DNA of 64,000 bases from an uncultured Lachnospiraceae bacterium (GTDB taxonomy: Bacteria; Bacillota; Clostridia; Lachnospirales; Lachnospiraceae): the NCBI GenBank assembly GCA_947165025.1, contig CAMUYQ010000013.1:1-64000 (forward strand). The letters are read 5' to 3'. The notes beneath the pieces were generated by a model. It was not told the DNA's origin. It did no database searches and saw only the letters and a program-made list of their open reading frames with translations. Every line of letters begins with the position of its first letter. The stretch's first letter is position 1. This document shows positions 1-61,893 of the stretch, in pieces. Both the position numbers and the translations under genes were made by a program.

Positions 1-38
1 TGCGTTTTGATCAAAAACCATCTTTTTCCACTTGACTT

Positions 39-479
39 CTAATAGTTAGTCTCCACTATTATCAGTTCTTCTTTTCTGACTGACCGCTCATCCTGCGCCC
101 CTTCCACATGGAACGCGTTAAGAACGGGAGCATCTTCCTTCTCAAGCGACAGTATCAGGTATGTCGCCCTCGGATCATTTGCAAGCCGCTTGTCCTCTTC
201 AGACGGACGCGACGGTGTCTCGGGATGCGAGTGCCAGTTGCCGAGCGGCACAAGCCCGTTTGCTCTCATATCCTTGACAGCGGCAAGCTGTTCTTTCGGA
301 TCGATCGAAAAATGCTCATTCGTATGATCCGTGTTTGTAAGCAGATAAACTTTCTCTATGCTTCTTGATCCGTCATCGGACTCTCTTCCGGCGATCAGAC
401 CGCACGCCTCATCGGGGCGTTGCGAAAGTGCATACTCAAGTATCCTGTCAAAATCGGAGCGTCTGATAGTTATTCTCAT
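39..479 (-). CDS. JAMM/MPN+ metallopeptidase (Mec/HcyD-like)
   Basis: Zinc peptidase of the JAMM (M67) family, 146 residues. The catalytic set is visible: Glu24 in DEACGLIAG, then His83-x-His85-Pro and Ser93-x2-Asp96 (the HxHP-x7-SxxD motif). Small bacterial members such as Mec of Mycobacterium and HcyD of Wolinella trim or cut the C-terminus of ubiquitin-like sulfur carriers. It is the last gene of the sulfur operon, 10 bases after the MoeB-like gene and close to the MoaD-like carrier whose C-terminus extends past Gly-Gly, so that carrier is the likely substrate (inference). I chose ATG at 479 (MRITIRR) over the in-frame codon at 512, because 512 would overlap the previous gene and 479 has an AGGG-type site upstream. 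Confidence 0.88.
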   Translation of the reverse strand: MRITIRRSDFDRILEYALSQRPDEACGLIAGRESDDGSRSIEKVYLLTNTDHTNEHFSIDPKEQLAAVKDMRANGLVPLGNWHSHPETPSRPSEEDKRLANDPRATYLILSLEKEDAPVLNAFHVEGAQDERSVRKEELIIVETNY

Positions 480-489
480 GATCTTCGCC

Positions 490-1299
490 CTATAAATGCA
501 TATCACATGCAATCTGTTCGTAGTCTATAAGTTCCGTGATCGTCGGAGTATCCGAACATACCGCACAACCCTTTCCTCTCGGCGGAAGCTTGATCTTATG
601 AAATTCCATTTTCAGTGCGTCGTATGTGAGAAGATATCCTGAAAGAAGTTCTCCGACACCGGTAATGTACTTGACCGCTTCCATAGCCTGGAGCGATCCT
701 ATAACGCCGCCCATTGCTCCGATGACGCCTGCCTGTTTACAGGTGGGAACCGCATCCTTTGGCGGAGGATTTTTGAAGATACAGCGGTAGCACGGACCTT
801 CTCCCGGAAGTATCGTCGTCAGCTGTCCCTTAAACCTTATGATCCCTGCATGTGAAAGAGGTTTCTTTGCCATCACGCATGCATCATTGATAAGGAACTT
901 GGCCGGGAAATTATCCGTTCCGTCCAGTATAAAATCATAGTCCTTAATAAGATCCATGATGTTCGCACTGCTCACAAAATCATAGTATGTGTTCACGGTC
1001 ACATCGGGATTGATCGCACGCATAGTCTCCGCTGCGGATTCAACCTTCTTTTTGCCGATATCGTTTGTCGTGTGAATGACCTGTCGCTGAAGATTTGACA
1101 GATCGACAACATCCGCATCAGCAATACCTATCGTCCCGACGCCTGCTGCCGCAAGATAAAGCGCAGCCGGGGCTCCTAGTCCTCCCGCACCGATTATGAG
1201 AACCTTTGCCGCAAGAAGCTTCTTCTGACCCTTTGCGCCGATCTCCTTTAAGATTATATGTCTCGAGTATCTCTCGAGCTGTTCGTTCGTAAACGGCAT
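490..1299 (-). CDS. MoeB/ThiF/HesA-type sulfur-carrier adenylyltransferase
   Basis: E1-like enzyme of 269 residues that adenylates the C-terminal glycine of a ThiS/MoaD-type carrier using ATP and supports thiocarboxylate formation. Visible features are the GAGGLG nucleotide loop (residues 37-42), the DADVVDLSNLQRQ segment, zinc-binding pairs C170-x2-C173 and C245-x2-C248, and the candidate catalytic cysteine C187 in VPTC. The length fits stand-alone MoeB/HesA proteins. Its ATG overlaps the stop of the MoaD-like carrier gene (TAATG), which implies translational coupling and a one-to-one partnership. A molybdopterin role is less likely because no other molybdenum cofactor genes are nearby. Confidence 0.9.
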   Translation of the reverse strand: MPFTNEQLERYSRHIILKEIGAKGQKKLLAAKVLIIGAGGLGAPAALYLAAAGVGTIGIADADVVDLSNLQRQVIHTTNDIGKKKVESAAETMRAINPDVTVNTYYDFVSSANIMDLIKDYDFILDGTDNFPAKFLINDACVMAKKPLSHAGIIRFKGQLTTILPGEGPCYRCIFKNPPPKDAVPTCKQAGVIGAMGGVIGSLQAMEAVKYITGVGELLSGYLLTYDALKMEFHKIKLPPRGKGCAVCSDTPTITELIDYEQIACDMHL

Positions 1300-1508
1300 T
1301 ACTGCGCGCCTCCTCCCATGAAATACAAGAACTCCACTTCGTCACCTTCGGATAATACATATGTTTCAAAAGCTCCCGAGTCGATGAACTCCTCGTTAAC
1401 CGATACCGTAACATACTGAGGTGTTTCAACGTTTTCCAACTCAATGAGAGCAGCAACGGTAAGCCCGTCCGCAACCTCTTTCTTTTCTCCAGCAACCGTG
1501 ATCTTCAT
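1299..1508 (-). CDS. MoaD/ThiS-type sulfur carrier with residues beyond Gly-Gly
   Basis: Small beta-grasp (ubiquitin-fold) protein of 69 residues. It starts like ThiS (MKITVAGEKKEV) and ends in FMGGGAQ. Carriers must end in Gly-Gly to be adenylated and thiocarboxylated; here Ala-Gln follow a GGG run at residues 65-67, so a peptidase has to remove the tail first. Two JAMM peptidases in the same operon could do this. The codons for the Gly run also supply the GGAGGAGG ribosome-binding site for the overlapping E1-like gene. A good site (AAAGGAG) precedes the start. A role in cysteine or methionine synthesis is inferred from the neighbours; a thiamine role is unlikely because no thi genes are present. 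Confidence 0.85.
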   Translation of the reverse strand: MKITVAGEKKEVADGLTVAALIELENVETPQYVTVSVNEEFIDSGAFETYVLSEGDEVEFLYFMGGGAQ

Positions 1509-1535
1509 AACACTCTGTCTCCTTTCGCAGTGATC

Positions 1536-2492
1536 CTAAATCACGTAAAACCAGTCTTCGCTCTGTTTGATCTCTTCCCTGACTATCTTGTCGTGAGTCC
1601 GGTATTCCATCTCCGGATTCTTGATGCTCACTCTTGTATTTGCCGGAACCGATGAGGTGATGAACGTATTACCTCCGATGATGCTGTTCTCACCGATCTC
1701 GGTATCACCGCCAAGAATGGACGCTCCGGCATATATCGTAACGTTGTCCTTTATGGTCGGATGTCTCTTTTTACCCGAAAGCTTCTGTCCGCCTCTTGTT
1801 GAAAGAGCACCTATCGTCACACCCTGGTATATCTTGACATTTTTGCCTATGACCGATGTCTCTCCGATAACTATCCCTGTTCCGTGATCGATGAAGAAAT
1901 ATTTGTCGATCGAAGCTCCGGGGTGAATGTCTATACCTGTTTCGGAATGCGCATACTCGGTCATGAGACGCGGTATGACAGGAACCTTCAAAAGATACAG
2001 TTCATGTGCCAGTCTGTACACTGTTATCGCCATCAGTCCCGGATAGGCAAGTATTATCTCCTCAAAACAGCCCGCCGCCGGATCCCCGTCATATGCTGCC
2101 AGAAGATCCGTTTCAATGTATTCCCTTATTACAGGGAGTTTGTAGAAAAACTCCCTGCATATCCTGTAGCTCTCCGCTTTACGTTCACTTTCGCTCATCG
2201 TTCCGCGGAGCCTGCAAAAATCAAGGGCCAGGTTTACCTGTTTATTCAGGTGATAAAAAATGTCCTCAATAGTTACCGCAAAAAAATTTCTCGGATTGTA
2301 TATCTTGAACGAACGGTCCCTGAAGTAGCCGGGGAACACGATACGGAACAGGTTTTTTACTATATCCCTGACTTCCGCCTTGTCGGGCTTGTTGAATATG
2401 TCGGCATCGTCTATGTTTTTCTGCTGCCTGAAATCGGCAAGCACTCTCTGAACGATACCGTCTATCTCTTCTTCCCTGATGATCTCTTCCAT
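1536..2492 (-). CDS. Serine O-acetyltransferase (EpsC/SrpH-like)
   Basis: Makes O-acetylserine from serine and acetyl-CoA, the acceptor for cysteine synthesis. About 318 residues: an alpha-helical N-terminal half followed by a left-handed beta-helix with hexapeptide repeats and the CysE-type segments SETGIDIHPGASID, FIDHGTGIVIGET and YQGVTIGALS. The long N-terminal part matches the EpsC type found with family 2A encapsulins rather than short CysE. I place the start at ATG 2492, which has AGGAG nine bases upstream; an in-frame TTG at 2519 would overlap the desulfurase stop. No cysteine synthase is present in the window, so the enzyme using its product here is unknown. Confidence 0.9.
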   Translation of the reverse strand: MEEIIREEEIDGIVQRVLADFRQQKNIDDADIFNKPDKAEVRDIVKNLFRIVFPGYFRDRSFKIYNPRNFFAVTIEDIFYHLNKQVNLALDFCRLRGTMSESERKAESYRICREFFYKLPVIREYIETDLLAAYDGDPAAGCFEEIILAYPGLMAITVYRLAHELYLLKVPVIPRLMTEYAHSETGIDIHPGASIDKYFFIDHGTGIVIGETSVIGKNVKIYQGVTIGALSTRGGQKLSGKKRHPTIKDNVTIYAGASILGGDTEIGENSIIGGNTFITSSVPANTRVSIKNPEMEYRTHDKIVREEIKQSEDWFYVI

Positions 2493-2511
2493 CGAGTCCA
2501 TCTCCTGTGCG

Positions 2512-4143
2512 TTAAGCAAATGTTCTGAGTACTTTCACAAGTGCATCAATATCATCCGGCGAGTTGTAAAGCGCCAGTGTCGGTCGAACGGACCCTTCAT
2601 AGCCGAAATGCCTGAGCACCGGCTGTGCGCAGTGGTGTCCCGTCCTTACAGCGATGCCATACGAATCAAGTCTTTTACCGACTTCCTCGTCCGAATATCC
2701 ATCCAGTTTGAACGAAAGAACGGATGCCTTGTTAAGTGCGGTTCCGATAAGAGTAAGTCCCGGGATCCTTGTCATTTCCTTCATCGCATACTGCAGAAGT
2801 TCATGCTCCCATCTGTACACACAGGGCATACCGATCTCGGTCAGGTACGAAAGCGCCGCACCGAGTCCGACCGCATCTGCGATACTTCCCGTTCCCGCCT
2901 CAAACTTATTCGGGATGTCGTTGTAGATGGTCCTTTCGAAGGTCACATCAGCGATCATATTTCCGCCGCCGTGGTACGGTTCTGCCGCTTCAAGAAGTTC
3001 TCTCTTTCCGTACACAACACCTATACCCGTAGGTGCAAATATCTTGTGTCCCGAGAAAACGAAGAAGTCTGCATCAAGTGCCGATACGTTCACGGGAATA
3101 TGTGCCACCGACTGTGCGCCGTCTATGAGTATCCTCACTCCGTGCCTGTGTGCAACGGCGATCAGTTCCTCTACAGGCGTCACGGTTCCGAGCACGTTTG
3201 ACACATGCGTTACTGCAACAAACTTTGTCTGCTTCGTGAACAGCTTTTCATATTCGGACATGATCAGCTGTCCCGTCTCATCACACGGAATGACCTTGAT
3301 CACTGCGCCTGTTTTCTGCGCTATAAGCTGCCAGGGTACTATGTTGGCATGATGCTCCAGTATCGAAACTATGATCTCATCCCCGCTCTGGAGCTGAGGT
3401 TTAACATATGCATTTGCAACAAGGTTGATAGCCTCTGTCGTTCCTCTTACGAAGATGATCTCTTCCGACGAAGATGCACCGATAAAGTCTCTTACGATAT
3501 CCCTTGCAGATTCATATGCATCCGTGGATCTTGCCGCAAGAGTGTGAGCACCTCTGTGGACATTTGAGTTCTCATGCTCGTAGTAATAAGACAGCCTGTC
3601 AATGACCTGTCTCGGTCTCTGTGTCGTGGCTCCGTTGTCAAGCCACACGAGTTTGTTTCCGTTGATCCTCTCCGATAATATCGGAAAATCATCCCTGATC
3701 TGAGCAAGTGTCTTGCTTCCGATACGGATGCTGTCGTCCCTTGACGTTCCCTTTTCACTTTTCTCATCGGCTGATGACACATCTGCACCCTGAAGAGACG
3801 TGGGAACATCGATCCTTCGGTCGGCCTCAGCTGCCTCGGTCTTGGACTGTACGGTCGGAGCGTATGATTTTGGCGGCTCAGCCGCACTCTGATACGCAAA
3901 CGGATGCTCCCAATCGAACTCGGATGTGAGGAGGGGCCCGCTTGCGGGAAGAGTCCTTACTTCACCGCGAGGGTCCATCGACGAAGTCGATTCTATTGCC
4001 CGAGCGTCCTCTTCTACCGCAGGTACCGCTGCGTCGGGAACATCACCCGAAGGGGAATATGTAAGATCCTCTGTCAGATCCGGAAACATTGAATTGGCAA
4101 GTGCCGTCAGTTCCGTTACGTCGTAGGGATCAGTCATAGTCAT
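2512..4143 (-). CDS. SufS-like cysteine desulfurase, putative encapsulin cargo
   Basis: PLP enzyme that takes sulfur from cysteine as a persulfide. About 543 residues, much longer than SufS (about 410). The first 135 or so residues are low-complexity, rich in Ser, Pro, Glu and Asp, and look disordered; the catalytic domain follows (QIRDDFPIL onward). The PLP lysine lies in FSGHKIFAP and the catalytic cysteine is C505 in RTGHHCAQP. Residues 12-21, LTALANSMFP, resemble the LARLANEFFS-type motif reported in the disordered N-terminus of desulfurases loaded into family 2A encapsulins. The start (4143, or 4137 two codons on) overlaps the end of the shell gene, as expected for co-assembled proteins. 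Cargo function is inferred from this motif and the gene order. Confidence 0.93.
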   Translation of the reverse strand: MTMTDPYDVTELTALANSMFPDLTEDLTYSPSGDVPDAAVPAVEEDARAIESTSSMDPRGEVRTLPASGPLLTSEFDWEHPFAYQSAAEPPKSYAPTVQSKTEAAEADRRIDVPTSLQGADVSSADEKSEKGTSRDDSIRIGSKTLAQIRDDFPILSERINGNKLVWLDNGATTQRPRQVIDRLSYYYEHENSNVHRGAHTLAARSTDAYESARDIVRDFIGASSSEEIIFVRGTTEAINLVANAYVKPQLQSGDEIIVSILEHHANIVPWQLIAQKTGAVIKVIPCDETGQLIMSEYEKLFTKQTKFVAVTHVSNVLGTVTPVEELIAVAHRHGVRILIDGAQSVAHIPVNVSALDADFFVFSGHKIFAPTGIGVVYGKRELLEAAEPYHGGGNMIADVTFERTIYNDIPNKFEAGTGSIADAVGLGAALSYLTEIGMPCVYRWEHELLQYAMKEMTRIPGLTLIGTALNKASVLSFKLDGYSDEEVGKRLDSYGIAVRTGHHCAQPVLRHFGYEGSVRPTLALYNSPDDIDALVKVLRTFA

Positions 4144-5086
4144 AGTATTCACCCACTTCCACGTCCTCAAGCACAGCTATGGCGTCATCTGCAAGGATGG
4201 CTACGGAGCAGTACAGTGACAACAGATAGGATGCAACTCCTTTATCATCTATTCCGCGGAAACGAACCGACAGACCTCTTGAATGTTCATTCTTCAGACC
4301 GGCCTGGAACAGACCGATGACTCCGCGCTTTGATTCACCTGTGCGGATAAGAAGAATGTTTGTCTTACCGCTCTGTGATGTCGGGTTCTTGAGTCCGTCA
4401 ACGAGAAGCTTGTCCGTAGGAATGATCGGAATACCTCTCCATGTAAGGAATGTTCCACCTGCGATGTTTACAACTACGGGCGGTACACCGCGTCTTGTGC
4501 ACTCTCTCTCGAATGCAGCGATAGCTCTGGGATGAGCAAGGAAGAACGAAGGCTCCTTCCATACCTTTGATATAAGCTCATCAAGATCATCGGGTGTGGG
4601 TGCTCCGTTGATCGTCTGGATACGCTGTGAATCCGGAACGTTCTTCAACAGACCGTAATCATCGTTATTTATCAGCTGGCTTTCCTGACGCTCGCGAAGT
4701 GACTCGATAGCAAGACCGAGCTGTTCCTGAACCTGATCGTATGGTGCGCTGTAAACATCCTCGATAGCCGTGTTTACGTTGATGATCGTAGAGATCGAAT
4801 TGAGAACGTACTCTCTCGGCTCTGTCTCATATTCAACAAAACCGGCGGGAATGATATCGCTCTTCTTTGTCTGTGAGCAAAGAACATCAAGAGGGGTCTC
4901 CCCTTCCACTACTTTGTTAACGCGGAAGATACCCGTCTCAAGCCCTTTGAACTCAAGGAATTTGGTAAGCCACTTAGGAGTGAGCGCTCCGTACTGGGGC
5001 TTTGTCTTTGTGACGTTCGCAAGATTATAAGCCGCTTTAGCCGAAAGCGCATTTATTCCTGCCTTGTTGTCTGCCTCTTTTGCCAT
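4130..5086 (-). CDS. Family 2A encapsulin shell protein (SrpI-like)
   Basis: HK97-fold shell protein of 318 residues, expected to self-assemble into a protein nanocompartment. The N-terminal arm (GALTPKWLTKFLEF then GIFRVNKV, around residues 38-60) and the AHPRAIAAFERECTRRG and RGVIGLFQAGLK stretches are typical of family 2 encapsulins. The length shows that the cyclic-nucleotide-binding insertion of family 2B is missing, so this is type 2A. It has the strongest ribosome-binding site of the operon (AAAGGAGG, eight bases before ATG), fitting a protein needed in many copies. A small inverted repeat (AACCT/AGGTT, 5106-5125) lies just upstream. The next gene is the cysteine desulfurase with a cargo-type N-terminus. 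Confidence 0.92.
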   Translation of the reverse strand: MAKEADNKAGINALSAKAAYNLANVTKTKPQYGALTPKWLTKFLEFKGLETGIFRVNKVVEGETPLDVLCSQTKKSDIIPAGFVEYETEPREYVLNSISTIINVNTAIEDVYSAPYDQVQEQLGLAIESLRERQESQLINNDDYGLLKNVPDSQRIQTINGAPTPDDLDELISKVWKEPSFFLAHPRAIAAFERECTRRGVPPVVVNIAGGTFLTWRGIPIIPTDKLLVDGLKNPTSQSGKTNILLIRTGESKRGVIGLFQAGLKNEHSRGLSVRFRGIDDKGVASYLLSLYCSVAILADDAIAVLEDVEVGEYYDYD

Positions 5087-5128
5087 TACTTGTTCCTCCT
5101 TTTTAAACCTGGTGCACTTTAGGTTGTT

Positions 5129-6589
5129 TTACAGACCGCCGCCTTCGTGCGAGAATATGATGTCCTTCATCGCATCCATTCCGCCTTTGAGGTTATACAA
5201 CGGTCCTTTATATCCTGCTTCGCGAAGCGTGTTGATCGCGAGGATACTCCTTTTACCTTCCTTACAGATGAATACCGTATCCACCTGAGGATCAAGTTCC
5301 TTCTGCCTTCTGGCAAGCTGTCCTATCGGGATCACAAGCGCATCCGGGAACTTGACTATCGCTCTTTCGTGAGGCTCCCTGACATCGATTATCGTCAGTT
5401 TCTCACTGTTCTCTATCCTGTGAGCAAGTTCTTCGGGGGTCAGTCCCTCGACACTCGACTCTTTTTCCTCTTCTCTCTTCAGTCCGCAGAAGTCTTCGTA
5501 ATCGATATCCTCCGGATGTGTGATCGAAGGACTGCTTCCGCACAGAGGACACTGATGCTTCTTACTGATATTCAACACGCTCGACCGGATCCCCATAGTA
5601 TCGATCGAAAGAAGTCTTCCCGATAGATGTTCACCGCATCCGATGATAAGCTTGAGAGCTTCATTTGCCTGTATGCTTCCCACTATCCCGGCAAGCGGGC
5701 TGATCGTGCCGCCCTCTGCACATGTCGGAACGAGCCCGGGCTCCGGCGGCTCGGGATACAGACATCGAAGACACGGGCCATCATCGTATCCGAATACCGC
5801 AACCTGTCCCTCGTACTGATAGATCGCCGCAAACACGAGCGGTATCCCCGAAAGGATACAGGCATCGTTTATCATGTATCTGGACTTGTAATTGTCCGTA
5901 CAGTCGATCACAAGATCGAAGCCTTCAATAAGTGACAGCACATTCTCGGAAGTCAGCATCTGATTTTCATCGATCACCGTTATGTTCCTGTCGATATTCC
6001 TGATCGTATCTCTTGCCGATGCAACCTTGGGACGTTTAACATCCCGCGATGAATGTATGACCTGGCTCTGAAGATTTCCGACAGAAACGACATCTGCGTC
6101 TATGACCTTGATAGTTCCGACACCCGCCGCAGCAAGGTACTGTATCACCGGAGATCCCAGAGCTCCGGCTCCCGCGACAACGACCTTAGCCGCCTTTATC
6201 CTCTTCTGTCCCTTTACACCTATCTCGCGAAGGAGAAGATGCTTGTTGAACCTGTCGATATCCTTGTCATCAAGGCTTATCTCTTTGATCCTCTCGTCGG
6301 ATATCAGTTTTTCTTCCGGAGCACCTCCGGCAACAAAAGGAAGGAGCAGTAATTCCGATACACCTTCAAGTGTCTTTTCATGTTCGGAAGCATCCGTTAC
6401 ATCCCTGCCGTCGGCAAATATCCTGATAAAACTTCTGAGATCCCCGTTCTGGTCATACAGTCCTTTTTTAGCATCCGGGAAACTATCCGTCAGTTCCGAA
6501 AGTATCTCAGAAACGGTGTTTTTATCTGTCTGAAATTCTGTTTTTCTTTCAAAAAACGATCGTAATGTCGCTGATATAACTACTCTCAT
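5129..6589 (-). CDS. MoaD/ThiS - ThiF/MoeB - rhodanese three-domain fusion
   Basis: 486-residue fusion of three sulfur-relay modules. Residues 1-89 form a MoaD-like beta-grasp carrier ending in LLLLPFVAGG (Gly88-Gly89). Residues about 108-365 are an E1-like adenylyltransferase with GAGALG (140-145), the zinc pairs CLRC and CPLC, and the candidate catalytic cysteine in VPTC. Residues about 390-486 are a rhodanese domain with active-site loop CKEGKRS (Cys near 442). Because the carrier's Gly-Gly is buried in a peptide bond to APEEK, the carrier could only be thiocarboxylated after cleavage, probably by the JAMM peptidase encoded one base upstream. In Wolinella the equivalent parts (HcyS, HcyF, HcyD) are separate proteins working with MetY. 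Confidence 0.9.
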   Translation of the reverse strand: MRVVISATLRSFFERKTEFQTDKNTVSEILSELTDSFPDAKKGLYDQNGDLRSFIRIFADGRDVTDASEHEKTLEGVSELLLLPFVAGGAPEEKLISDERIKEISLDDKDIDRFNKHLLLREIGVKGQKRIKAAKVVVAGAGALGSPVIQYLAAAGVGTIKVIDADVVSVGNLQSQVIHSSRDVKRPKVASARDTIRNIDRNITVIDENQMLTSENVLSLIEGFDLVIDCTDNYKSRYMINDACILSGIPLVFAAIYQYEGQVAVFGYDDGPCLRCLYPEPPEPGLVPTCAEGGTISPLAGIVGSIQANEALKLIIGCGEHLSGRLLSIDTMGIRSSVLNISKKHQCPLCGSSPSITHPEDIDYEDFCGLKREEEKESSVEGLTPEELAHRIENSEKLTIIDVREPHERAIVKFPDALVIPIGQLARRQKELDPQVDTVFICKEGKRSILAINTLREAGYKGPLYNLKGGMDAMKDIIFSHEGGGL

Positions 6590-6590
6590 C

Positions 6591-6980
6591 TCATGCTTCT
6601 TTCCGGCTGTCCATTATCCACAGCCTCATTCTTCCGCATCCTTCCTTCGTTACCGGTGCCAGCAGATATAGCATGGCAGGTATGACATTTTTCTCATCCT
6701 CTTCTGACATCACCGCAGGCGCATCAGGATGTGAATGGAAGAATCCCGTGATCTCGTAACCTTTCTTTCTGTAGGAAGATTCACATTCGTACAGTTCGAC
6801 AGGATCTATGCTGTATCGGTTATTGCTGCTGCTCGTGTTCGTAAGCTCGCAACACTCGTCTATCGAGCCGTCCGTCTTTGTAAATAACGCGGCACAGCAC
6901 TCACACGGATATGAGCTGTTTGCAAGATCGCAAAGTCTCTGTTTTATCTTTTTGTCTATCTTTACAACGTTACTGTTCAT
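6591..6980 (-). CDS. JAMM/MPN+ metallopeptidase (HcyD-like)
   Basis: 129-residue zinc peptidase of the JAMM family, with Glu27 in YPCECCA, His82-x-His84-Pro and Ser92-x2-Asp95. It differs from the JAMM protein at the far end of the operon and is cysteine-rich (six Cys in the first 44 residues). It overlaps metY by four bases (ATGA) and precedes the fusion gene by one base, so the trio MetY, JAMM and carrier/E1 copies the order of the Wolinella thiocarboxylate methionine pathway. Likely task: cut after Gly88-Gly89 of the fusion to release the carrier domain (inference). Confidence 0.88.
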   Translation of the reverse strand: MNSNVVKIDKKIKQRLCDLANSSYPCECCAALFTKTDGSIDECCELTNTSSSNNRYSIDPVELYECESSYRKKGYEITGFFHSHPDAPAVMSEEDEKNVIPAMLYLLAPVTKEGCGRMRLWIMDSRKEA

Positions 6981-8221
6981 TGTCTGCTTTCTCTTACCGC
7001 TTTGCGAAAATCATTTATCAGATCTTCTTTGTCTTCGATCCCGACACTGACCCGCACGGTGTCTTCGTAAACTCCGGCCGCTTCTGTCTCTGGAGCATCG
7101 GTATGTATATAGAGCGTTGACATCGGATGGATCACAAGTGTCCTGATGTCGCCTATGTTGCTGGCTATCCTGGCATATTTAAGTGAATTGATGATCCTGA
7201 AAGCTCTTTCCTTCGAACCTGCTCTGAATGAGAGTATCCCCCCGCCGTATCCTTTGAACTGCGTATCCACAAAAGAGTGATACGGATGATCTTCAAGTGT
7301 CAGGTAATTGACTGAGATATCATCTTCCCCGGAAAGTGCATGCGCAAGAGCATCTGCGTTTTCACATATCCTTTCCATTCTGAGCCCGAGCGTATCTACG
7401 CCGGTAAATGACAGATATGCGTTAACGGGAGCCATACACCCGCCGAGATTCTCCCACAGATCGGTCCGAAGCCTTAACAGGAATGCCATTTTTCCGTATT
7501 TTCTGTGACCGGAAAGCGCACTGTGTTTATTGAAATCCCAGCTGAACTTTCCGCCGTCCACTATGATCCCGCCGATAGCATTTCCGCCACCGTTGATGTA
7601 CTTGGACGTTGAATGTATTACTATGTCGGCACCGAACGAAAACGGTCTTACAAGATAAGGTGTTGCGGTTGTTGAATCCACAATGAGAGGGATCCCCGCA
7701 TTATGTGCAGCTTCGGAGGCTTCGTGTATATCAAGTACATTTAAGGAAGGATTACTGATCACCTCAGCGAAAACCGCTTTCGTTCGGTCCGTTACAAGCC
7801 TGTCTATATTTTCTTTGTTGATAACATCAGCAAACACCGTATGGATCCCGAGCTTCTCAAGATCGCGGAGCAGATCGAGCGTTCCGCCATACAGACCGGT
7901 TCCCGCTATGATCTCATCACCACTCTCACAAAGTGCAAGGAGTGTCGACGATATGGCAGCCATTCCGCTGCTTGTCGCTATCGCTCCGATCCCGCCTTCA
8001 AGTGCGTTTATCTTCTGTTCAAACGCAGCAACAGTTGGGTTTCCTATCCTCGTATACGCATATCCCATGCTTTTGTGAGCAAAAACTCTTTCGAGTTCTT
8101 CCATGCTCTCGTATTCAAAAGCCGTTACCTGCGATATCGGCGGAAGGATCTCCCGCTGGCCGAAACCATGCGCTTCTCCGGTATGAAGTAATCCTGTGTT
8201 GAATCCGCGGTCGTGTTGCAT
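6977..8221 (-). CDS. metY: O-acetylhomoserine sulfhydrylase (MetY type)
   Basis: PLP enzyme of the Cys/Met-metabolism family, 414 residues, making homocysteine from O-acetylhomoserine and a sulfur donor. Family features include FNTGLLHTGEAH at the start, the substrate-binding YTRIGNPTVAAFE segment and the PLP lysine in HSTSKYINGGG. The free-sulfide enzyme and the thiocarboxylate-using enzyme look alike in sequence, but adjacency to JAMM, carrier and E1 genes points to a protein-thiocarboxylate donor. It is the first gene of the nine-gene operon and has a perfect promoter 32 bases upstream. Only about 25 bases of leader are left, too short for an S-box or T-box. Confidence 0.93.
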   Translation of the reverse strand: MQHDRGFNTGLLHTGEAHGFGQREILPPISQVTAFEYESMEELERVFAHKSMGYAYTRIGNPTVAAFEQKINALEGGIGAIATSSGMAAISSTLLALCESGDEIIAGTGLYGGTLDLLRDLEKLGIHTVFADVINKENIDRLVTDRTKAVFAEVISNPSLNVLDIHEASEAAHNAGIPLIVDSTTATPYLVRPFSFGADIVIHSTSKYINGGGNAIGGIIVDGGKFSWDFNKHSALSGHRKYGKMAFLLRLRTDLWENLGGCMAPVNAYLSFTGVDTLGLRMERICENADALAHALSGEDDISVNYLTLEDHPYHSFVDTQFKGYGGGILSFRAGSKERAFRIINSLKYARIASNIGDIRTLVIHPMSTLYIHTDAPETEAAGVYEDTVRVSVGIEDKEDLINDFRKAVRESRQ

Positions 8222-8252
8222 TTGTGAGTGTCTCCCGATGTTAATTGAATGG

Positions 8253-8281
8253 ATTATATAACCATTTACCTACTATGTCAA
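8253..8281 (-). promoter_or_regulatory. Sigma-A promoter of the encapsulin/sulfur operon
   Basis: On the minus strand TTGACA (8276-8281) and TATAAT (8253-8258) match both consensus boxes, with a 17-base spacer. It is the only promoter-like sequence I noticed for the nine genes below it. Confidence 0.85.
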
Positions 8282-8287
8282 TAGGTA
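8267..8287. promoter_or_regulatory. Candidate operator over the -35 box
   Basis: Inverted repeat TACCTA-N9-TAGGTA centred on the -35 hexamer of the metY promoter. A repressor bound here would block polymerase. The regulator is unknown; an Rrf2/CymR-type or other sulfur-responsive factor is a guess. Confidence 0.45.
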
Positions 8288-8331
8288 TTATAAAAAATAA
8301 GACGAATGACTGGGGATACAATAAAGGATAG

Positions 8332-8479
8332 GGATTACTGCGAATCCAAGAAACAGACGCCGAAAATCTCAAGAGATTTCCGGCGCCGTTTCTTAGATTC
8401 CAATGAATTACAACAGACAAAAAGAGTTCCTCGGATAAATCCGGGAACTCTTTCCATCTGCCGTAATTCGCAGTAATCC
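8332..8479. repeat. Nested palindromic element between rpsI and metY
   Basis: A 14-base perfect inverted repeat (8332-8345 and 8466-8479) encloses two further hairpins: a long one at 8342-8400 (AAGAAAC/GTTTCTT, CGCCG/CGGCG, AAATCTC/GAGATTT arms) and the rpsI terminator at 8421-8453. Transcribed, the whole could fold as a multi-branched structure. Confidence 0.7.
8416..8453 (-). terminator. Intrinsic terminator after rpsI
   Basis: Read on the minus strand, an AAAGAGTTCC / GGAACTCTTT stem is followed by a T run (complement of 8416-8422), starting 27 bases past the rpsI stop. Confidence 0.85.
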
Positions 8480-8878
8480 TTATCTCTTCGAGAACTGGGG
8501 TGCTCTTCTTGCTGCCTTGAGACCGGGCTTCTTTCTTTCCTTCATACGAGGATCTCTTGTAAGGAAGCCTGCTGACTTAAGGGCGGGACGGAAGTCCTCA
8601 TCCACTTTAAGAAGTGCTCTTGCGATACCGTGACGGATGGCACCCGCCTGGCCTGTTGTACCGCCGCCTTTAACGTTAACCTTGATATCGTACTTCTTCT
8701 CTGTTTCTGTAGCAACAAGGGGCTGACGAACGATAGTCTTTAATGTCTCAAGTCCGAAGTACTCATCGATGTCTCTCTTGTTGACCGTGATATTTCCTTT
8801 GCCGGGTTTGATATAAACTCTGGCAACAGCTGATTTTCTTCTTCCTGTTCCGTAGAACTGTTCTTTTGCTTTAGCCAT
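8480..8878 (-). CDS. rpsI: 30S ribosomal protein S9
   Basis: 132 residues, the usual size. The start matches bacterial S9 ([14 protein letters not shown]), and the C-terminal tail [14 protein letters not shown], which reaches the P-site tRNA, is intact. It follows rplM by 22 bases in the conserved rplM-rpsI operon and ends at a terminator. Confidence 0.99.
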
Positions 8879-8900
8879 TTTTATCTCCTTTTACCTGCGA

Positions 8901-9329
8901 TCAAAACTTCAACTCTTCGGGCTTCTGTGCTGCATGAGGATGCTCGGCACCCGCATATACGAAAAGCTTCTTGTACATTCTGCGGCCCAGAGGTCCCTTG
9001 GGAAGCATTCCCTTGACTGCAAGTTCAACAACCTCCGTAGGAGCTTTTGCGAGCTTGTCGCGAAGTGTTGTCTCCTTCATTCCGCCGACATACTCCGAAT
9101 GATGGTAGTATATCTTCTGATCAAGCTTGCGGCCTGTAACCTTAACCTTCTCTGCATTAATGATGATCACACAATCGCCTGTATCAGCGTGAGGTGTGAA
9201 GATAGGCTTGTTCTTTCCTCTGAGGATCTTGGCAACTTCCGATGACAGACGACCCAGAGTACATCCTGTTGCATCAACGACATACCATTTACGTTCAATG
9301 GCAGCCTCGTTGGGCATATATGTATTCAT
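8901..9329 (-). CDS. rplM: 50S ribosomal protein L13
   Basis: 142 residues with typical L13 segments ([41 protein letters not shown]). The start is ATG 9329, seven bases after GGAGG; an in-frame extension to 9386 is not family-like and is rejected. About 100 bases of leader separate the promoter from the start and could hold an L13-type autoregulatory structure, which I cannot confirm by eye. Confidence 0.98.
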
Positions 9330-18770: not shown

Positions 18771-18854
18771 CACATATTTGATTTTTTTTCCGAAGTTCTT
18801 TTGTCACTTTGTTATGCTATAATGGAGAAAATCATCGAGGGAGAATACTATCTT

Positions 18855-19637
18855 ATGAAGATAACCATACTCGGCGCGCGCGGTTCTGTCCCGACAAGCG
18901 GTGCGAAAACGCAGGTTTTCGGCGGATCCACTTCTTGCGTGCTCATAGAGACCGATGATAATGCCATCTATCTTGATGCGGGATCCGGGATAATCCAGAC
19001 ACCCGATATCGGAGACAGGCAGATCTCGATACTCATCACACATCCTCATTTTGATCATCTTATAGGATTGCCGTTTTTTCCGTACAACACTGCTCCCGGA
19101 CGCCGGATAGATGTATACGGAAAAAGCCGCAGTGAAGGAACAATAAAAGAGCAGCTGGAAAGACTGATCTCTCCGCCTCTCTGGCCATGTACTCTTTCCG
19201 AATACAAGGCAGACTACTGTTTCCACGAAGCCGAAGCCCGGTTCAGTATAGGAAACATAGATGTTGAGACTGCAGAATCACGACATCCCGGCTCAAGTCT
19301 TATATACAGGATATCGTTTGACGGCAAAAGCATTGTATATGCTACGGATTACGAATACGCCGAGGATGAAAGCTCAAAGCTCAGTGATTTTGCAAAGGGC
19401 GCCAACCTTATCCTGCTTGATGCGCAGTATACGGATGAAGAGTTTGCGGCAAGGAAAGGGTTCGGACACTCAACGGTAAAACAGGGCCTTAGGATAATGC
19501 AGGATGCACAGGCGAAAATCATGCGCTTCGTGCATCATGATCCAAGACATACGGATGAAATGCTTAAGAAAATGGAAGACGAGGTAAAGAGCGACTCTGT
19601 TGCCTTTGCCAGGGAAGGCGAGGTGATCGTTCTGTGA
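18855..19637 (+). CDS. MBL-fold metal-dependent hydrolase
   Basis: About 260 residues of the metallo-beta-lactamase fold: THPHFDHLIGLP carries the HxHxDH zinc motif, with further ligands in GHSTVKQG and HHDPRH. Its opening, MKITILGARGSVPTSG, is typical of hydrolases related to cyclic nucleotide phosphodiesterases and RNase Z. It is first in an operon with an HD-GYP gene and a nucleotide cyclase gene. A TGC-TATAAT extended -10 (18818-18823) lies 31 bases upstream. The start is set at MKITILG because upstream codons lack homology and overlap the -10. Confidence 0.88.
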   Translation: MKITILGARGSVPTSGAKTQVFGGSTSCVLIETDDNAIYLDAGSGIIQTPDIGDRQISILITHPHFDHLIGLPFFPYNTAPGRRIDVYGKSRSEGTIKEQLERLISPPLWPCTLSEYKADYCFHEAEARFSIGNIDVETAESRHPGSSLIYRISFDGKSIVYATDYEYAEDESSKLSDFAKGANLILLDAQYTDEEFAARKGFGHSTVKQGLRIMQDAQAKIMRFVHHDPRHTDEMLKKMEDEVKSDSVAFAREGEVIVL

Positions 19638-21085
19638 ATACAAATACCGGATCAGCATACTCTCTTGAAAGAATGATAAAGATCGCGCTCGATCTGAGTG
19701 CCGAAAAGGATTTCGACAGACTGATGAAGAAGATCCTGACCGAGGCAATGGACACCTGCAAATGCGATGCGGGAACCGTTTATCTCCTTGAAGACGATCT
19801 TCTGCATTTCCATACGTTCTTCACAAAATCAAAGAACATAAGCTCTGACAAGAACAAACTTCCGCCGCCGGTACCGATGAAGCGCTCCCATGTGTGCGCA
19901 TGTGCAGCGATCGATAACAAGAAGATAAACCTCCCGGATATATACGAATCCGACGAGTATGATTTTCAGGGAGCCCAGAAGTATGACGCGCTCAACGACT
20001 ACCGCACGGGGTCGATGCTCGTGATACCAATGAGCGATGAAAAAGACAATGTCATAGGGGTTCTGCAGCTCATCAATGCGCTTGATGATGCGGGCAACAT
20101 GATCCCGTTTGACAAAGGTTATGAAGAGGTCGTTCAGGCACTTGCGAGTCTGGCTGCCGTTTCGATAAACAACCACCGTCTCGCTCAGGAAGTAAGCGAT
20201 CTGTTACAGTCATTCGTGCAGGTCATGGTCGGTGCGATCGATACGAGAACGCCTTACAATGCAAGTCATACGCGTTCCATGGTCAAATACGGCGACCGCT
20301 TTATCGACTGGCTGAACGAGAGCGGCAACGAATGGAAGTTTACCGATGAGCAGAAGGAAGCATTCCTTATGAGCGTATGGCTTCATGATATCGGAAAGCT
20401 GCTCGTGCCGCTTAACGTCCTTGACAAGGCTGACCGCTTGTCTGGTATCCGTGAACCGATCATAAACAGGATCGAGATCGGTTGCCTGAAGGATCAGATC
20501 ACGGCACTTACCGATCCGTCAAAGGCCGAAGAATGCAAGGCACATGAGCAGGCGCTTCGGACCGCATGGACAACGATGGAGGAAGCCAACGGTAAAGGAT
20601 TCCTTGACGATCTTATGCTTGACAGGCTGCGTGCATGCGCAAAGCTTACATGCAAAAACGCACAGGATGAGGACATTCCTCTTCTGACAAAAGACGAGCT
20701 GACAAAGCTCAGCGTCAGAAAAGGAACCCTTACGGATGCTGAAAAGAGCGAAGTTGAGAAGCATGTTGTCTATACAGCGGAAATGCTTGATAAGATGAAC
20801 TTTAAGGGTGTATACAAGGATGTACCTCACATGGCGGGATCCCATCATGAGTTCGTTGACGGGACAGGTTATCCGAACAAGATCTCAGGAGATGAGATAT
20901 CGGATGAGATACGACTCCTTACGGTACTTGATATATACGATGCGCTGACTGCCGAGGACAGGCCGTACAAGCCGCCTATTCCCGCAGAAAAGGCGTTTGC
21001 GATACTGAATGCAATGGTTAACGAAGGAAAGCTCGACAGGAGGATAGTCGATCTGTTTGAACAAAGCGGGGCATGGAGATCATGA
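19634..21085 (+). CDS. GAF - HD-GYP cyclic-di-GMP phosphodiesterase
   Basis: 483 residues. An N-terminal GAF-type sensor (about 10-180) is followed by an HD-GYP domain with HDIGKLLVP and the signature HHEFVDGTGYP. A long insertion of about 120 residues separates the two motifs. Such enzymes degrade cyclic-di-GMP to GMP or pGpG. The GTG start overlaps the TGA of the MBL gene (GTGA), with GAGG upstream. The following cyclase gene also overlaps its end, so all three proteins are co-translated. Confidence 0.9.
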   Translation: MNTNTGSAYSLERMIKIALDLSAEKDFDRLMKKILTEAMDTCKCDAGTVYLLEDDLLHFHTFFTKSKNISSDKNKLPPPVPMKRSHVCACAAIDNKKINLPDIYESDEYDFQGAQKYDALNDYRTGSMLVIPMSDEKDNVIGVLQLINALDDAGNMIPFDKGYEEVVQALASLAAVSINNHRLAQEVSDLLQSFVQVMVGAIDTRTPYNASHTRSMVKYGDRFIDWLNESGNEWKFTDEQKEAFLMSVWLHDIGKLLVPLNVLDKADRLSGIREPIINRIEIGCLKDQITALTDPSKAEECKAHEQALRTAWTTMEEANGKGFLDDLMLDRLRACAKLTCKNAQDEDIPLLTKDELTKLSVRKGTLTDAEKSEVEKHVVYTAEMLDKMNFKGVYKDVPHMAGSHHEFVDGTGYPNKISGDEISDEIRLLTVLDIYDALTAEDRPYKPPIPAEKAFAILNAMVNEGKLDRRIVDLFEQSGAWRS

Positions 21086-22890
21086 TCGGATTATTAAAGA
21101 AAAATAAGCTCGCACGTTCGCTTGCGATATCACTTGCGGGAGCAGTTCTCGTAACTGCGATAATCGGATATTTCGGACTTCTGGACAAGCTTGACGGGCT
21201 TGCACAGGATGCACTCTACCAGCAGCCGAACGCACTTTCCGGCGAGATCATCATGATCTGTATAGATGACAAGGCGCTCGAGCAGTTCGGCCCTTACAAT
21301 ACATGGGACAGAACGATAATGGCACGCGCCCTTGAGAAGCTGTCCGAAGATCCCGCGCATGTTCCGGCAGTTGTTGCCATCGATACGATCTATACGGGAC
21401 AGACTACGGAAGAAGCGGACAAAAGGCTTGCTGATGCAGCCTCAAAGCTTGATGTTGTCACCGCATCGTTTGCACAGATCGGATCCCAGGTTGTCGAAGA
21501 CGAAAACGGAAACATGTATTATGACAGGAATGCCGTTTCGGGATATTCTCTTCCCTATGAGGAGCTCAGGGATGTGACCACGCAGGGACACGTAAATGCC
21601 GTGTGCGATCCCGACGGGATACTCAGACACGCCCTTCTGTCAATAGATGTCAGCAGCGAAAAGGTTTACTCAATGGCATACACAACGGCAAAGAAATATG
21701 CCGAAAAGACCGGACTTGATATCACCGAACCCGAGACAACCGGTGGATATTACTACGTGTCTTATTCAGCGCTTCCGGAAGGATTCTACGACGGATACTC
21801 GCTTGCGGATCTGATAAACGGAGATATTCCCTCGGATGCTTTTGAAGACAGGATCGTCCTTATCGGACCTTATGCAGTCGGACTGCAGGATGAATACTTC
21901 ACGGCGATAGACCATTCACGCCATATGTACGGAATGGAATATCAGGCAAACGTGATACAGATGATACTTGACGGAAATTATAAGAGTGAGCTTGCCAAGT
22001 TCCCCCAGCAGCTTGTTCTGTTTATCATAAGCTTCCTGGCGTTCTTCGCATTCCTGATGACTGATTTTCGGATATCATCCGTTGTTATGGCAGGTGTTAT
22101 CGCGCTGTCTCTCGGTGCCACATATGCGATGTATTCGTCCGGCATCGTCATGCATCCGCTGTGGATACTGGTAGGTGTGTTTGCGCTCTATCTCGTGTCG
22201 ATAGTGATCAGGTATCTGTATTCCGCACTTGAGAAACAGCGAGTGACACGGACGTTTGAAAGATACGTTGCACCCGAGATCGTTGCCGAGATCCTTAAGG
22301 AAGGTACGGAGAACCTGTCGCTTGGCGGCAAGCTCTGCAACATCGCCGTACTGTTTGTTGATGTCAGGGGATTTACTACGATGTCGGAAAGACTGGATCC
22401 GGAAAAGGTCGTATATATCCTTAACAGATATCTGACAATGGCGAGCAGTTGTGTTGAACAGAATATGGGAACTCTGGACAAATTCGTGGGTGACGCGATG
22501 ATGGCGTTCTGGGGAGCGCCGATCCCGCAGGATGATGCGGTATATAATGCGGTAAAGACGGCCATGGACATAGTCGACGGAGCAGCAAGGGTTTCGCTTG
22601 AACTTAAGGATGAGATCGGTGAAGAACTGCGTGTCGGAGTCGGTGTTCATTACGGACCCGCAGTCGTCGGAAACATGGGCGCCGAACGCCATATGGACTA
22701 CACGGCGATCGGCGATACTGTAAATACCGCTGCAAGACTTGAAGCAAATGCTCCGGCCGGAACGGTATATATAAGCAGAAGTGTTGCGGATGTTCTCGGG
22801 GACAGGATCTCATACGAATCCCTCGGAAACACCGTTCCCCTCAAGGGAAAATCAGACTTCGAAGTACTTAAACTCAATATTCAATCCTGA
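21073..22890 (+). CDS. CHASE2 sensor - class III nucleotide cyclase
   Basis: 605 residues: an N-terminal membrane helix, an extracellular CHASE2 domain (about 40-310), three more membrane helices and a cytoplasmic class III cyclase. Metal-binding aspartates lie in FVDVRGF and FVGDAMMAFWG. A lysine before FVGD and the aspartate of IGDTVNTAARLE favour ATP over GTP, so cyclic AMP is the likely product. ATG 21082 (ATGA overlap with the previous stop) is an equally possible start. It converges on the opposite-strand HD-GYP gene, overlapping by 10 bases. Confidence 0.92.
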   Translation: MEIMIGLLKKNKLARSLAISLAGAVLVTAIIGYFGLLDKLDGLAQDALYQQPNALSGEIIMICIDDKALEQFGPYNTWDRTIMARALEKLSEDPAHVPAVVAIDTIYTGQTTEEADKRLADAASKLDVVTASFAQIGSQVVEDENGNMYYDRNAVSGYSLPYEELRDVTTQGHVNAVCDPDGILRHALLSIDVSSEKVYSMAYTTAKKYAEKTGLDITEPETTGGYYYVSYSALPEGFYDGYSLADLINGDIPSDAFEDRIVLIGPYAVGLQDEYFTAIDHSRHMYGMEYQANVIQMILDGNYKSELAKFPQQLVLFIISFLAFFAFLMTDFRISSVVMAGVIALSLGATYAMYSSGIVMHPLWILVGVFALYLVSIVIRYLYSALEKQRVTRTFERYVAPEIVAEILKEGTENLSLGGKLCNIAVLFVDVRGFTTMSERLDPEKVVYILNRYLTMASSCVEQNMGTLDKFVGDAMMAFWGAPIPQDDAVYNAVKTAMDIVDGAARVSLELKDEIGEELRVGVGVHYGPAVVGNMGAERHMDYTAIGDTVNTAARLEANAPAGTVYISRSVADVLGDRISYESLGNTVPLKGKSDFEVLKLNIQS

Positions 22891-32176: not shown

Positions 32177-32565
32177 TCCCGAAGTGCCTGTTTTATATCC
32201 TTGATCAGTTCGCGATCCGCAGGCAACCATTTTACGCTGTCGATATCATCTAAGGTGAGCCACCTTGCTTCTTCTGCTTCTTTCAATTCCAATTCACCTG
32301 ATTTAATCGCTGCCCAAAAACAATCCATTGAAAGATGAAACTTCGGGTAATCATATTCTACCGTTTTAATCAAATCTCCCACTTCAATTTCAGCCGTCAG
32401 TTCCTCACGAATTTCACGTACCAACGCCTCTTGCGGAGTTTCCCCTTCTTCTATTTTGCCTCCGGGGAATTCCCACCATCCTTTATACTCTCCGTACCCT
32501 CTGGCGGTAGAATAAACCTTATCATCCTTTCTGATTATAGCTGCTACTACTCTTATATTATTCAT
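32173..32565 (-). CDS. Nudix hydrolase, MutT/8-oxo-dGTP diphosphatase-like
   Basis: 130 residues with the Nudix box GGKIEEGETPQEALVREI ending REEL, preceded by WWEFPGG as in MutT. Probably clears oxidised nucleoside triphosphates. Its start overlaps the stop of the nuclease-helicase gene by four bases, so it belongs to that transcription unit with the MazG-like gene, another nucleotide-pool enzyme. Confidence 0.92.
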   Translation of the reverse strand: MNNIRVVAAIIRKDDKVYSTARGYGEYKGWWEFPGGKIEEGETPQEALVREIREELTAEIEVGDLIKTVEYDYPKFHLSMDCFWAAIKSGELELKEAEEARWLTLDDIDSVKWLPADRELIKDIKQALRE

Positions 32566-34697: not shown

Positions 34698-34708
34698 CAC
34701 GGTCACTC

Positions 34709-60933: not shown

Positions 60934-60953
60934 GTAATGCCCCCTCCAATCCT

Positions 60954-61424
60954 TTAGAACCCACCTGCTTGATAAGCTCTTGCAATAACATATGATGGCT
61001 CATAAAATGCGCTACAATTGTAATTATCAATCACATCACAAAGTTCGTTGTTATATACTCGAAGAATTCCATCAGCATAATCTTCCTTGGAATTCATCGT
61101 ATCAACAATCAGCCTCTGATACACGTTCCCCATCTCAAGAGCAGTAGGTATTTTTCCCGCTAAATCTTTATCAACATTTGTAATATCAAAATCACTAGTT
61201 TCAAGGTTGTATTCTTTAATCCAATCATCTTCTACTTTCAAAGGATTTTCGGCATGCAATACATTAGCAACACTCAATAAATGGGATAAGCCTTCCTTCC
61301 CAATTGCATTTACCACATAGCGATTTCTTTGATGAAGATGTCGAGCCACGCGCTCTATCATGTAGCAAACAAAATAAAGATCATTCTTTTCTATATCTTC
61401 TTCCGGGAAATATTTATTTTTCAT
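60954..61424 (-). CDS. Partner protein of the DUF3990 gene
   Basis: 156 residues, helical. DLYFVCYMIERVARHLHQRN resembles DUF3791-type partners, which often precede or follow DUF3990 genes; the rest is not recognised. The start overlaps the DUF3990 stop by four bases, typical of toxin-antitoxin pairs, so it is a candidate antitoxin. Confidence 0.6.
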   Translation of the reverse strand: MKNKYFPEEDIEKNDLYFVCYMIERVARHLHQRNRYVVNAIGKEGLSHLLSVANVLHAENPLKVEDDWIKEYNLETSDFDITNVDKDLAGKIPTALEMGNVYQRLIVDTMNSKEDYADGILRVYNNELCDVIDNYNCSAFYEPSYVIARAYQAGGF

Positions 61425-61882: not shown

Positions 61883-61893
61883 TATTTCACCCC

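Follow-up and report, generated by a model that had tools for sequence, protein, structure and literature searches.

A family 2A encapsulin, its presumed desulfurase cargo and two ubiquitin-like sulfur-carrier sets encoded in one operon of a Lachnospiraceae bacterium

Why is the shell protein of a family 2A encapsulin, together with a cysteine desulfurase, encoded in the midst of two sets of ubiquitin-like sulfur carriers? The question is raised by positions 39-8221 of a stretch of 64,000 nucleotides (the window) that begins contig CAMUYQ010000013.1 of an uncultured Lachnospiraceae bacterium (assembly GCA_947165025.1). With a probability of roughly 0.55, we read the locus as a sulfur-handling unit that couples a 2A encapsulin, loaded with a cysteine desulfurase, to two protein-thiocarboxylate pathways. 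Taken singly, the organelle family and the two carrier pathways are known; here they form one conserved unit. A preliminary description of the locus, made from the letters alone, was aware of each module but not of their combination, and our limited literature search likewise found no paper that names it, an earlier listing being possible in the neighbourhood tables of two encapsulin surveys.

All nine genes lie on the minus strand with tiny gaps or overlaps, as first described, and their packing is that of an operon with one consensus promoter ahead of it. They are given here in the order of transcription, with modules A and B as delimited further below:

8253-8286, minus strand: promoter TTGACA-17-TATAAT (12/12 match) with an overlapping operator-like site, ACCTATTGACATAGTAGGT (8268-8286, exact)
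6977-8221, minus strand: MetY-type O-acetylhomoserine sulfhydrylase, module B (PF01053, 358.5 bits, over its cut-off; TIGR01326, 412.6 bits, under its cut-off of 495.1)
6591-6980, minus strand: JAMM1 metalloprotease, module A (PF14464, 53.4 bits, cut-off 25; HxHx7SxxD motif)
5129-6589, minus strand: fusion of a MoaD-like carrier (residues 1-89, ending AGG), a MoeB/ThiF-type E1-like adenylyltransferase (E1) and a C-terminal rhodanese, module A (PF02597, PF00899, PF00581)
4130-5086, minus strand: family 2A encapsulin shell protein (NF041162, 488.6 bits, cut-off 380; solved relatives)
2512-4143, minus strand: SufS-type cysteine desulfurase, presumed cargo, with a disordered-looking N-terminal extension (NF041166; TIGR01979; GHHC loop)
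1536-2501, minus strand: serine O-acetyltransferase (SAT), EpsC-like (NF041874, 154.5 bits, cut-off 150)
1299-1508, minus strand: ThiS-type carrier with C-terminal GGGAQ, module B (TIGR01683, 66.4 bits, cut-off 37.45)
490-1299, minus strand: E1-like adenylyltransferase without rhodanese, module B (PF00899, 291.9 bits)
39-479, minus strand: JAMM2 metalloprotease, module B, last gene before the contig end (PF14464, 87 bits, cut-off 25)

MetY and JAMM1 overlap by 4 nt; gaps of 1 nt and 42 nt separate JAMM1 from the fusion and the fusion from the encapsulin gene. The latter overlaps the desulfurase gene by 14 nt, given a desulfurase start at ATG 4143, which we prefer to the less likely TTG listed at 4170. 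There follow a 10-nt gap before the SAT gene (ATG taken at 2501), a 27-nt gap before ThiS, an overlap of 1 nt between ThiS and E1, and 10 nt before JAMM2 (ATG taken at 479). Base 1 of the window is also base 1 of the contig, and with only 38 bases beyond JAMM2 the 3' end of the operon lies outside the sequence; in most relatives, TusA follows at this point. Against the cysE model the SAT scored 166.2 bits, under the cut-off of 210.65, and Rfam gave no match anywhere in the window. The promoter, at 8281-8253 upstream of MetY, agrees with the consensus at all 12 positions. The other minus-strand promoter-like sites in 1-9000 are two, each matching at 9 of 12 positions, and the total of such sites there is 7, below the mean of 10.2 expected from shuffles. 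A separate promoter for the second half, which would have split the operon of the preliminary description, was not seen in the promoter scan of 1-9000 or in the scan for the operator-like motif.

Is the arrangement peculiar to this contig? The preliminary description had suggested searching other genomes for encapsulin genes close to carrier and JAMM genes, and this linkage does recur. The shell protein, searched against genome contigs at one genome per species, gave 528 related stretches, of which the best 80 were retained; ten of the 80 come from strains and not from metagenome-assembled genomes (MAGs). By title, 76 belong to Lachnospiraceae or other Clostridia-type bacteria, and the remaining four comprise Fibrobacter succinogenes (two MAGs), Treponema zioleckii (one isolate) and Ruminobacter (one MAG). 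Shell identity to that of the window is 87-98% among the best 80, and the stretches are mostly rumen-derived where titles state a source. The operon is present in cultured strains (e.g., XBB2008, AB2028, KH1P17, and G41). An assembly artefact is ruled out by the identical order in these named strains and in several phyla, and the recurrence of the gene order means that the arrangement is not due to chance. Shells 88-90% identical to that of the window occur in Fibrobacter, Treponema and Ruminobacter (L048, L080, L072, L087), and their presence there suggests transfer between phyla.

With further genomes and plasmids included, we compared 97 loci, of which 94 reach 500 bp or more upstream, and took 86 as the main set; all counts refer to loci, some of which share a genome, and not to independent events. 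In 85 of the 94 loci, a carrier-E1-rhodanese gene (a separate rhodanese piece in L104) ends no more than 400 bp upstream of the shell gene. The shells of these 85 loci are 73% or more identical to that of the window, and those of the nine loci without an upstream fusion are 45-71% identical. Among 200 genomes of the host family, moreover, five hold the shell, and a full-length fusion was found in exactly those five (search at E 1e-60, up to 7 candidates scored in each; 35 of the 200 genomes do not reach the standard of 90% completeness and 5% contamination). Random placement of the five would have a chance of 1 in C(200,5), or ~4e-10, a figure that shared ancestry weakens. No shell, ThiS-family carrier or JAMM was detected in the same-genus genome G193, whose DNA (L137) matches that of the window over rpsI until window base 8473, where the match ends immediately ahead of the operon, as expected from gain or loss of the whole unit.

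Is the shell protein a genuine 2A encapsulin and the desulfurase its cargo? The 4130-5086 product clears the 2A family model NF041162, which places it in family 2A, and scores 376 bits against the 2B model, under the cut-off of 400. The cNMP-binding domain that is the hallmark of 2B was not found, SrpI-like being the only Pfam domain detected in its 318 residues (E 0.01). The solved shells 8t6r (384 bits) and SrpI 6x8m (366 bits) match it, and this homology to SrpI-type shells supports an HK97 fold. A phage capsid is ruled out by the score against the 2A model, far above its cut-off; the matches in a phage collection were two records under one name, 56.5% identical and with a desulfurase as neighbour, plus one weak match. 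The adjacent desulfurase scored 783 bits against the cargo model NF041166, just below the cut-off of 800, and 545 bits against the SufS model TIGR01979 (cut-off 475.1). At residue 12 it carries LTALANSMF, which is similar to LARLANEFFS, the published cargo motif of a 2A desulfurase whose activity rose about sevenfold upon encapsulation (PMC8049743). We therefore counted the 2A feature of an adjacent desulfurase with an N-terminal cargo-like segment as present. Under a strict pattern, an LxxLANxxF-like N-terminal segment occurs in 67 of 91 desulfurases and in none of 4550 shuffles; a looser pattern finds it in 78 of 80 desulfurases of the main set and in 4 of 11 elsewhere. The GHHC active-site loop is intact in all 91 complete desulfurases, L021 deviating at the first residue of the wider motif. 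Elemental sulfur is reportedly stored by a 2A shell, according to Benisch and colleagues in 2024.

How could the carrier of the fusion come into play? The preliminary description had named carrier, E1 and rhodanese among the parts of the locus but did not list that a MoaD-like carrier is fused to the other two at a Gly-Gly joint, where a cut is required for thiocarboxylate chemistry. As encoded, the joint is uncleaved, and Gly-Gly stands there in all 79 homologues with a complete N terminus, the next residue being A in 60, S in 13, V in 5, and K in 1; between 35 and 48 residues separate it from the E1 motif that is fixed next in the chain. Seven fusion rows were set aside from this count (L013, L018, L072, L087, L104, L109, and L110): L018, L072, L087, and L109 show Gly-Gly by eye, L013 is truncated, L104 has no fusion, and the row of L110 is a rhodanese unrelated to the others. 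In an alignment of 34 fusions (33 of 75 candidate references and that of the window), A87, G88, and G89 are invariant, as are both CXXC pairs, C273/C276 and C347/C350, and the rhodanese CxxxxR loop is present in 85 of 86 fusions. Since a C terminus inside a longer chain cannot be adenylated, the carrier must be cut from the fusion, and the invariance of the joint therefore argues for a protease that frees it. This protease is probably a JAMM protein. For MoaX, a MoaD-MoaE fusion of Mycobacterium tuberculosis, a cut after Gly-Gly was needed for activity (PMC4326299).

The candidate proteases and the second carrier also keep their motifs. The HxHx7SxxD motif of JAMM1 is intact in 73 of 73 complete homologues and the active-site motif of JAMM2 in 56 of 56, and 62 of 63 complete ThiS carriers end with GGG plus at least one further residue. 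Among E1-bearing loci that reach 4 kb or more upstream, 72 of 73 have a JAMM gene in the fetched stretch. The one without, L090, is a second shell locus in G135, whose genome has three JAMMs, and 10 of 11 fusion genomes searched hold a JAMM above the cut-off. The two encapsulin loci of G135 are L089, which is a full operon, and L090, which is reduced to fusion, shell and desulfurase.

Which parts belong together? Judged by gene order in relatives, module A comprises JAMM1, the MoaD-E1-rhodanese fusion, shell, desulfurase, and SAT, and module B comprises MetY, ThiS, E1, and JAMM2, joined in relatives by TusA and often by sulfite reductase. Of the three-module make-up first described, the 2A encapsulin, desulfurase and SAT set interleaved with two carrier-E1-JAMM sets stands; the grouping of MetY with the neighbouring JAMM1 does not. 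MetY lies beside ThiS-E1 and away from JAMM1 in 10 of 86 loci (L015, L016, L038, L048, L056, L063, L067, L074, L077, and L080) and beside ThiS-E1 likewise in L109, L124, and L126; family f39 (L109, L124) shows the order ThiS-E1-JAMM2-sulfite reductase-TusA-MetY. In relatives, module B is found downstream, upstream or not at all, and the SAT gene is also variable or absent. Among the 43 loci of the main set that are well covered, with flanks of 6.5 kb or more upstream and 6 kb or more downstream, fusion, shell, and desulfurase are present in 43, SAT in 39, ThiS-E1 in 34, and MetY in 34. MetY and ThiS-E1 occur together in 32 and are both missing from 7, in which the encapsulin is accompanied by JAMM1 or the fusion alone; in Pseudobutyrivibrio loci such as L060 and L062, the stretch fetched contains module A and no module B.

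Cysteine is the probable product of module A, given the cysteine synthase genes linked to this module in relatives. In G772, G773, and G658, which belong to another family of the same phylum, such a gene ends ~50 bp before the fusion; it was not found before the fusion in the other f39 loci read upstream (G537, G744, G712). The loci in which a cysteine synthase gene is linked to the encapsulin set are L104, L122, L123, and L128. In L104, plasmid pACIB of Aliarcobacter cibarius, the upstream half reads cysteine synthase, JAMM, IS110 transposase, a free MoaD ending AGGI, E1, and IS5 transposase, and the remainder rhodanese, shell (73%), desulfurase, CysE, a small open reading frame, and CysK. 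With the two transposase genes interrupting it, the carrier set of pACIB may be decaying there. For the linked synthases (f39-type and Aliarcobacter), the CysM model scored best, under its cut-off, as did solved cysteine synthase B chains. Only two ThiS-family carriers were detected in the genome of the window, and both lie in the operon, so nothing obvious suggests that thiamine or molybdopterin synthesis shares them. An assignment of the locus to thiamine or molybdopterin genes was ruled out, no other ThiS-family carrier having been detected in the genome.

How might these parts work together? The desulfurase would enter the shell by means of its N-terminal LxxLANxxF segment and would convert cysteine to alanine plus persulfide or stored sulfur. 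JAMM1 (or JAMM2) would cut the fusion after Gly-Gly and free the MoaD-like carrier from the E1-rhodanese part. The rhodanese domain would accept sulfane sulfur from the shell system, and the E1 would adenylate the freed carrier and form its thiocarboxylate. A cysteine synthase, unlinked here and linked in relatives, would then join the carrier sulfur to O-acetylserine from the SAT of the operon, yielding cysteine. On a parallel route, ThiS, E1, and JAMM2 (with TusA in relatives) would feed MetY to give homocysteine. The shell would serve as a sulfur bank, from which the ubiquitin-like carrier makes withdrawals. The narrower proposal, that the encapsulated desulfurase is the dedicated donor of the E1-fused, JAMM-freed carrier and that stored sulfur exits the shell only as protein thiocarboxylate, is more tentative, and we hold its chances to be slightly under even.

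Several points weigh against such a coupled unit. The linkage of shell and carrier is strong as genetics, but the link in chemistry, with the transfer of sulfur from shell to rhodanese, is what we infer from gene content, and the donor could be sulfide instead of shell persulfide. Carrier-E1 fusions without encapsulin occur in other families, so the fusion does not require the shell. The genome G658 has a fusion and no detected JAMM, being fragmented and 85% complete. The fusion keeps both CXXC pairs, unlike most proteins of the type to which the mycobacterial MoeZR that serves CysO belongs. No cysteine synthase gene lies within 39-8221, and the genome also has one ordinary CysK above the cut-off and three further full-length PF01053 enzymes; the routes of the operon are therefore not the only ones.

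Could regulation alone hold the locus together? In this alternative, the shell set and the carrier sets would be neighbours in a co-switched island of sulfur assimilation and the carriers would be fed by sulfide or by other enzymes; we consider it unlikely, yet of real weight. The neighbours in relatives include sulfite reductase, TusA, CysK, sulfate transport, CysD, and IscU-type genes, and one operator-like motif precedes several sulfur genes. This motif, ACCTATTGACNNAGTAGGT, overlaps the -35 box at 8268-8286, where it is exact and occurs for the only time in the window (0.09 expected). It was found in 59 of 86 related loci, with 79 sites compared with 3 in one mononucleotide shuffle, the motif having been derived from the same regions in which its sites were counted. 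These sites lie within 600 bp before a close MetY in 32 cases, a gene for an Rrf2 regulator in 16, CysK in 4, and a gene for a rhodanese-TusA-DsrE protein in 4; none of the 79 falls within the fusion-shell-desulfurase span. The Rrf2 protein resembles IscR and CymR, scoring under their cut-offs, and we would guess that it binds the motif. A motif over the -35 box that is common to the MetY, Rrf2, CysK, and rhodanese-TusA-DsrE genes perhaps marks an Rrf2-family sulfur regulon.

Distant 2A encapsulins (L105-L108) that work without these carriers, and carrier-E1 fusions that exist without a shell, also favour mere co-regulation. The latter came from a search of 398 genomes of the phylum, with the three best candidates per genome scored, which found carrier-E1 fusions of 36-41% identity in genomes without a detected shell and thereby ruled out that the fusion is unique to the shell. 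We read six of them (L130-L135, from other Bacillota families): a cysteine synthase gene stands beside four and a JAMM gene near three, and Gly-Gly is present in the five whose joint was displayed. These six represent a wider class of self-fused sulfur carriers, and the carrier-E1 fusions, taken together, point to the synthesis of cysteine. In a tree of E1 domains (L074, L133, and L136 were dropped by pattern), the 29 shell-linked fusions form one group (support 100/99) and five shell-less fusions a separate one (99/94), with the unfused Aliarcobacter E1 between them; by this tree, a single origin of the link between the shell and E1s of this type can be traced in the sample. That single clade speaks against co-regulation alone, as does the position directly before the shell, which in 85 of 94 loci is held by the fusion specifically and not by just any sulfur gene, together with the exact tracking in the 200 genomes. 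Module B and SAT, unlike the fusion, vary in place or are absent.

Two further alternatives concern what carrier A does. It is quite improbable that JAMM1 and the fusion form a ubiquitin-like conjugation system in the manner of Urm1-Uba4, tagging the shell, its cargo or other proteins, with JAMM1 removing the tag, even though a MoaD-like carrier, E1-rhodanese, and JAMM make up an Urm1-Uba4/SAMP-like set, both carriers possess Gly-Gly, and protein modification by archaeal SAMP1 with HvJAMM1 has been published (PMC4443979). The genes linked to the set in relatives encode sulfur enzymes, cysteine synthases among them, and neither ligases nor parts of a proteasome, and no E2-like gene was seen among recurrent neighbours (clusters in at least four loci). 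Less probable still is that carrier A, with the desulfurase shell as its sulfur source, serves another acceptor, as E1-rhodanese proteins and MoaD-like carriers (cf. Uba4-Urm1) do in tRNA thiolation and molybdenum cofactor synthesis and as the MoeB-type CXXC pairs might suggest, for SAT in 39 of 43 well-covered loci and the linked cysteine synthases favour cysteine, and genes of tRNA thiolation or cofactor synthesis were not noted among recurrent neighbours, no search having been aimed at MnmA-type or molybdenum cofactor genes.

Wolinella makes homocysteine by way of a protein thiocarboxylate, and module B resembles this Wolinella-type module. It has the linkage described for class 4e in Iyer 2006, namely a ThiS-type carrier with residues after GG, a rhodanese-free E1, JAMM, and O-acetylhomoserine sulfhydrylase, with TusA and sulfite reductase linked in relatives; here, in contrast to class 4e, it is split or wrapped around the encapsulin set. 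A protein thiocarboxylate pathway is also mentioned in PMC5764234. Module A resembles the mycobacterial CysO-MoeZR-CysM-Mec system, whose cysteine chemistry has been published (PMC3227635), and classes 4c and 4d of Iyer 2006, as regards the MoaD-like carrier, the E1 with rhodanese, the JAMM, and the CysM-like synthase of some relatives. It differs in that the carrier is fused to its own E1, SAT and a presumably encapsulated desulfurase are added, and the synthase is unlinked in the window. Class 4c has a linked cysteine synthase and, in the mycobacterial case, a CXXC-less E1, neither of which is found here, the E1 carrying the CXXC pairs that MoeZR-type proteins mostly lack according to PMC3227635. 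We propose that the operon works like a CysO-type module, without filing it as a member.

The shell set, in turn, is like SrpI/CyD of Synechococcus elongatus in shell family, in the adjacent desulfurase with an LxxLANxxF-type segment, and in SAT, which along with rhodaneses is given in PMC8346489 as the most enriched accessory of 2A encapsulins. The SrpI-type loci L105-L108 differ from it in having no carrier, E1 or JAMM by tblastn and a JAMM hidden Markov model, and the rhodanese here is part of the carrier-E1-rhodanese fusion. A ubiquitin-like domain N-terminal to an E1 is also known from the Ubl-ThiF fusions of Campylobacter jejuni and Pelobacter propionicus (Iyer 2006) and from L130-L135; the genomes of the latter had no encapsulin detected at the search sensitivity used, and the E1s of five form the separate clade described above. 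MoaX shares the carrier trapped in a fusion with Gly-Gly at the joint and differs in its partner, which is MoaE and not an E1; the MoaX paper (PMC4326299) names no protease.

Elsewhere in the window, Pfam places metallo-beta-lactamase-fold, GAF-HD, CHASE2-cyclase, and HD-domain genes together at 18801-25070, the CHASE2 protein bearing an adenylate/guanylate cyclase domain. A protein with a Schlafen group 3 helicase domain is encoded at 32562-34706, and type I restriction genes for HsdR-like and specificity-subunit-like proteins lie at 57949-63258 (both by Pfam).

What, then, would the coupled unit mean? It bears on the fate of the sulfur of 2A encapsulins, for which published encapsulin surveys point to "a rhodanese" as acceptor (PMC8346489): here the rhodanese sits within a protein that also contains a carrier and an E1, so that the acceptor and the probable products can be named. 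If the narrower proposal of a dedicated donor is true, the carrier thiocarboxylate would be, to our knowledge, the first assigned outlet of an encapsulin sulfur store, and a virus-derived organelle and a ubiquitin-like cascade would form one pathway. The operon also joins two evolutionary threads, that of capsid-derived compartments and that of the sulfur-carrier ancestors of ubiquitin, and it may matter for the sulfur economy in the rumen.

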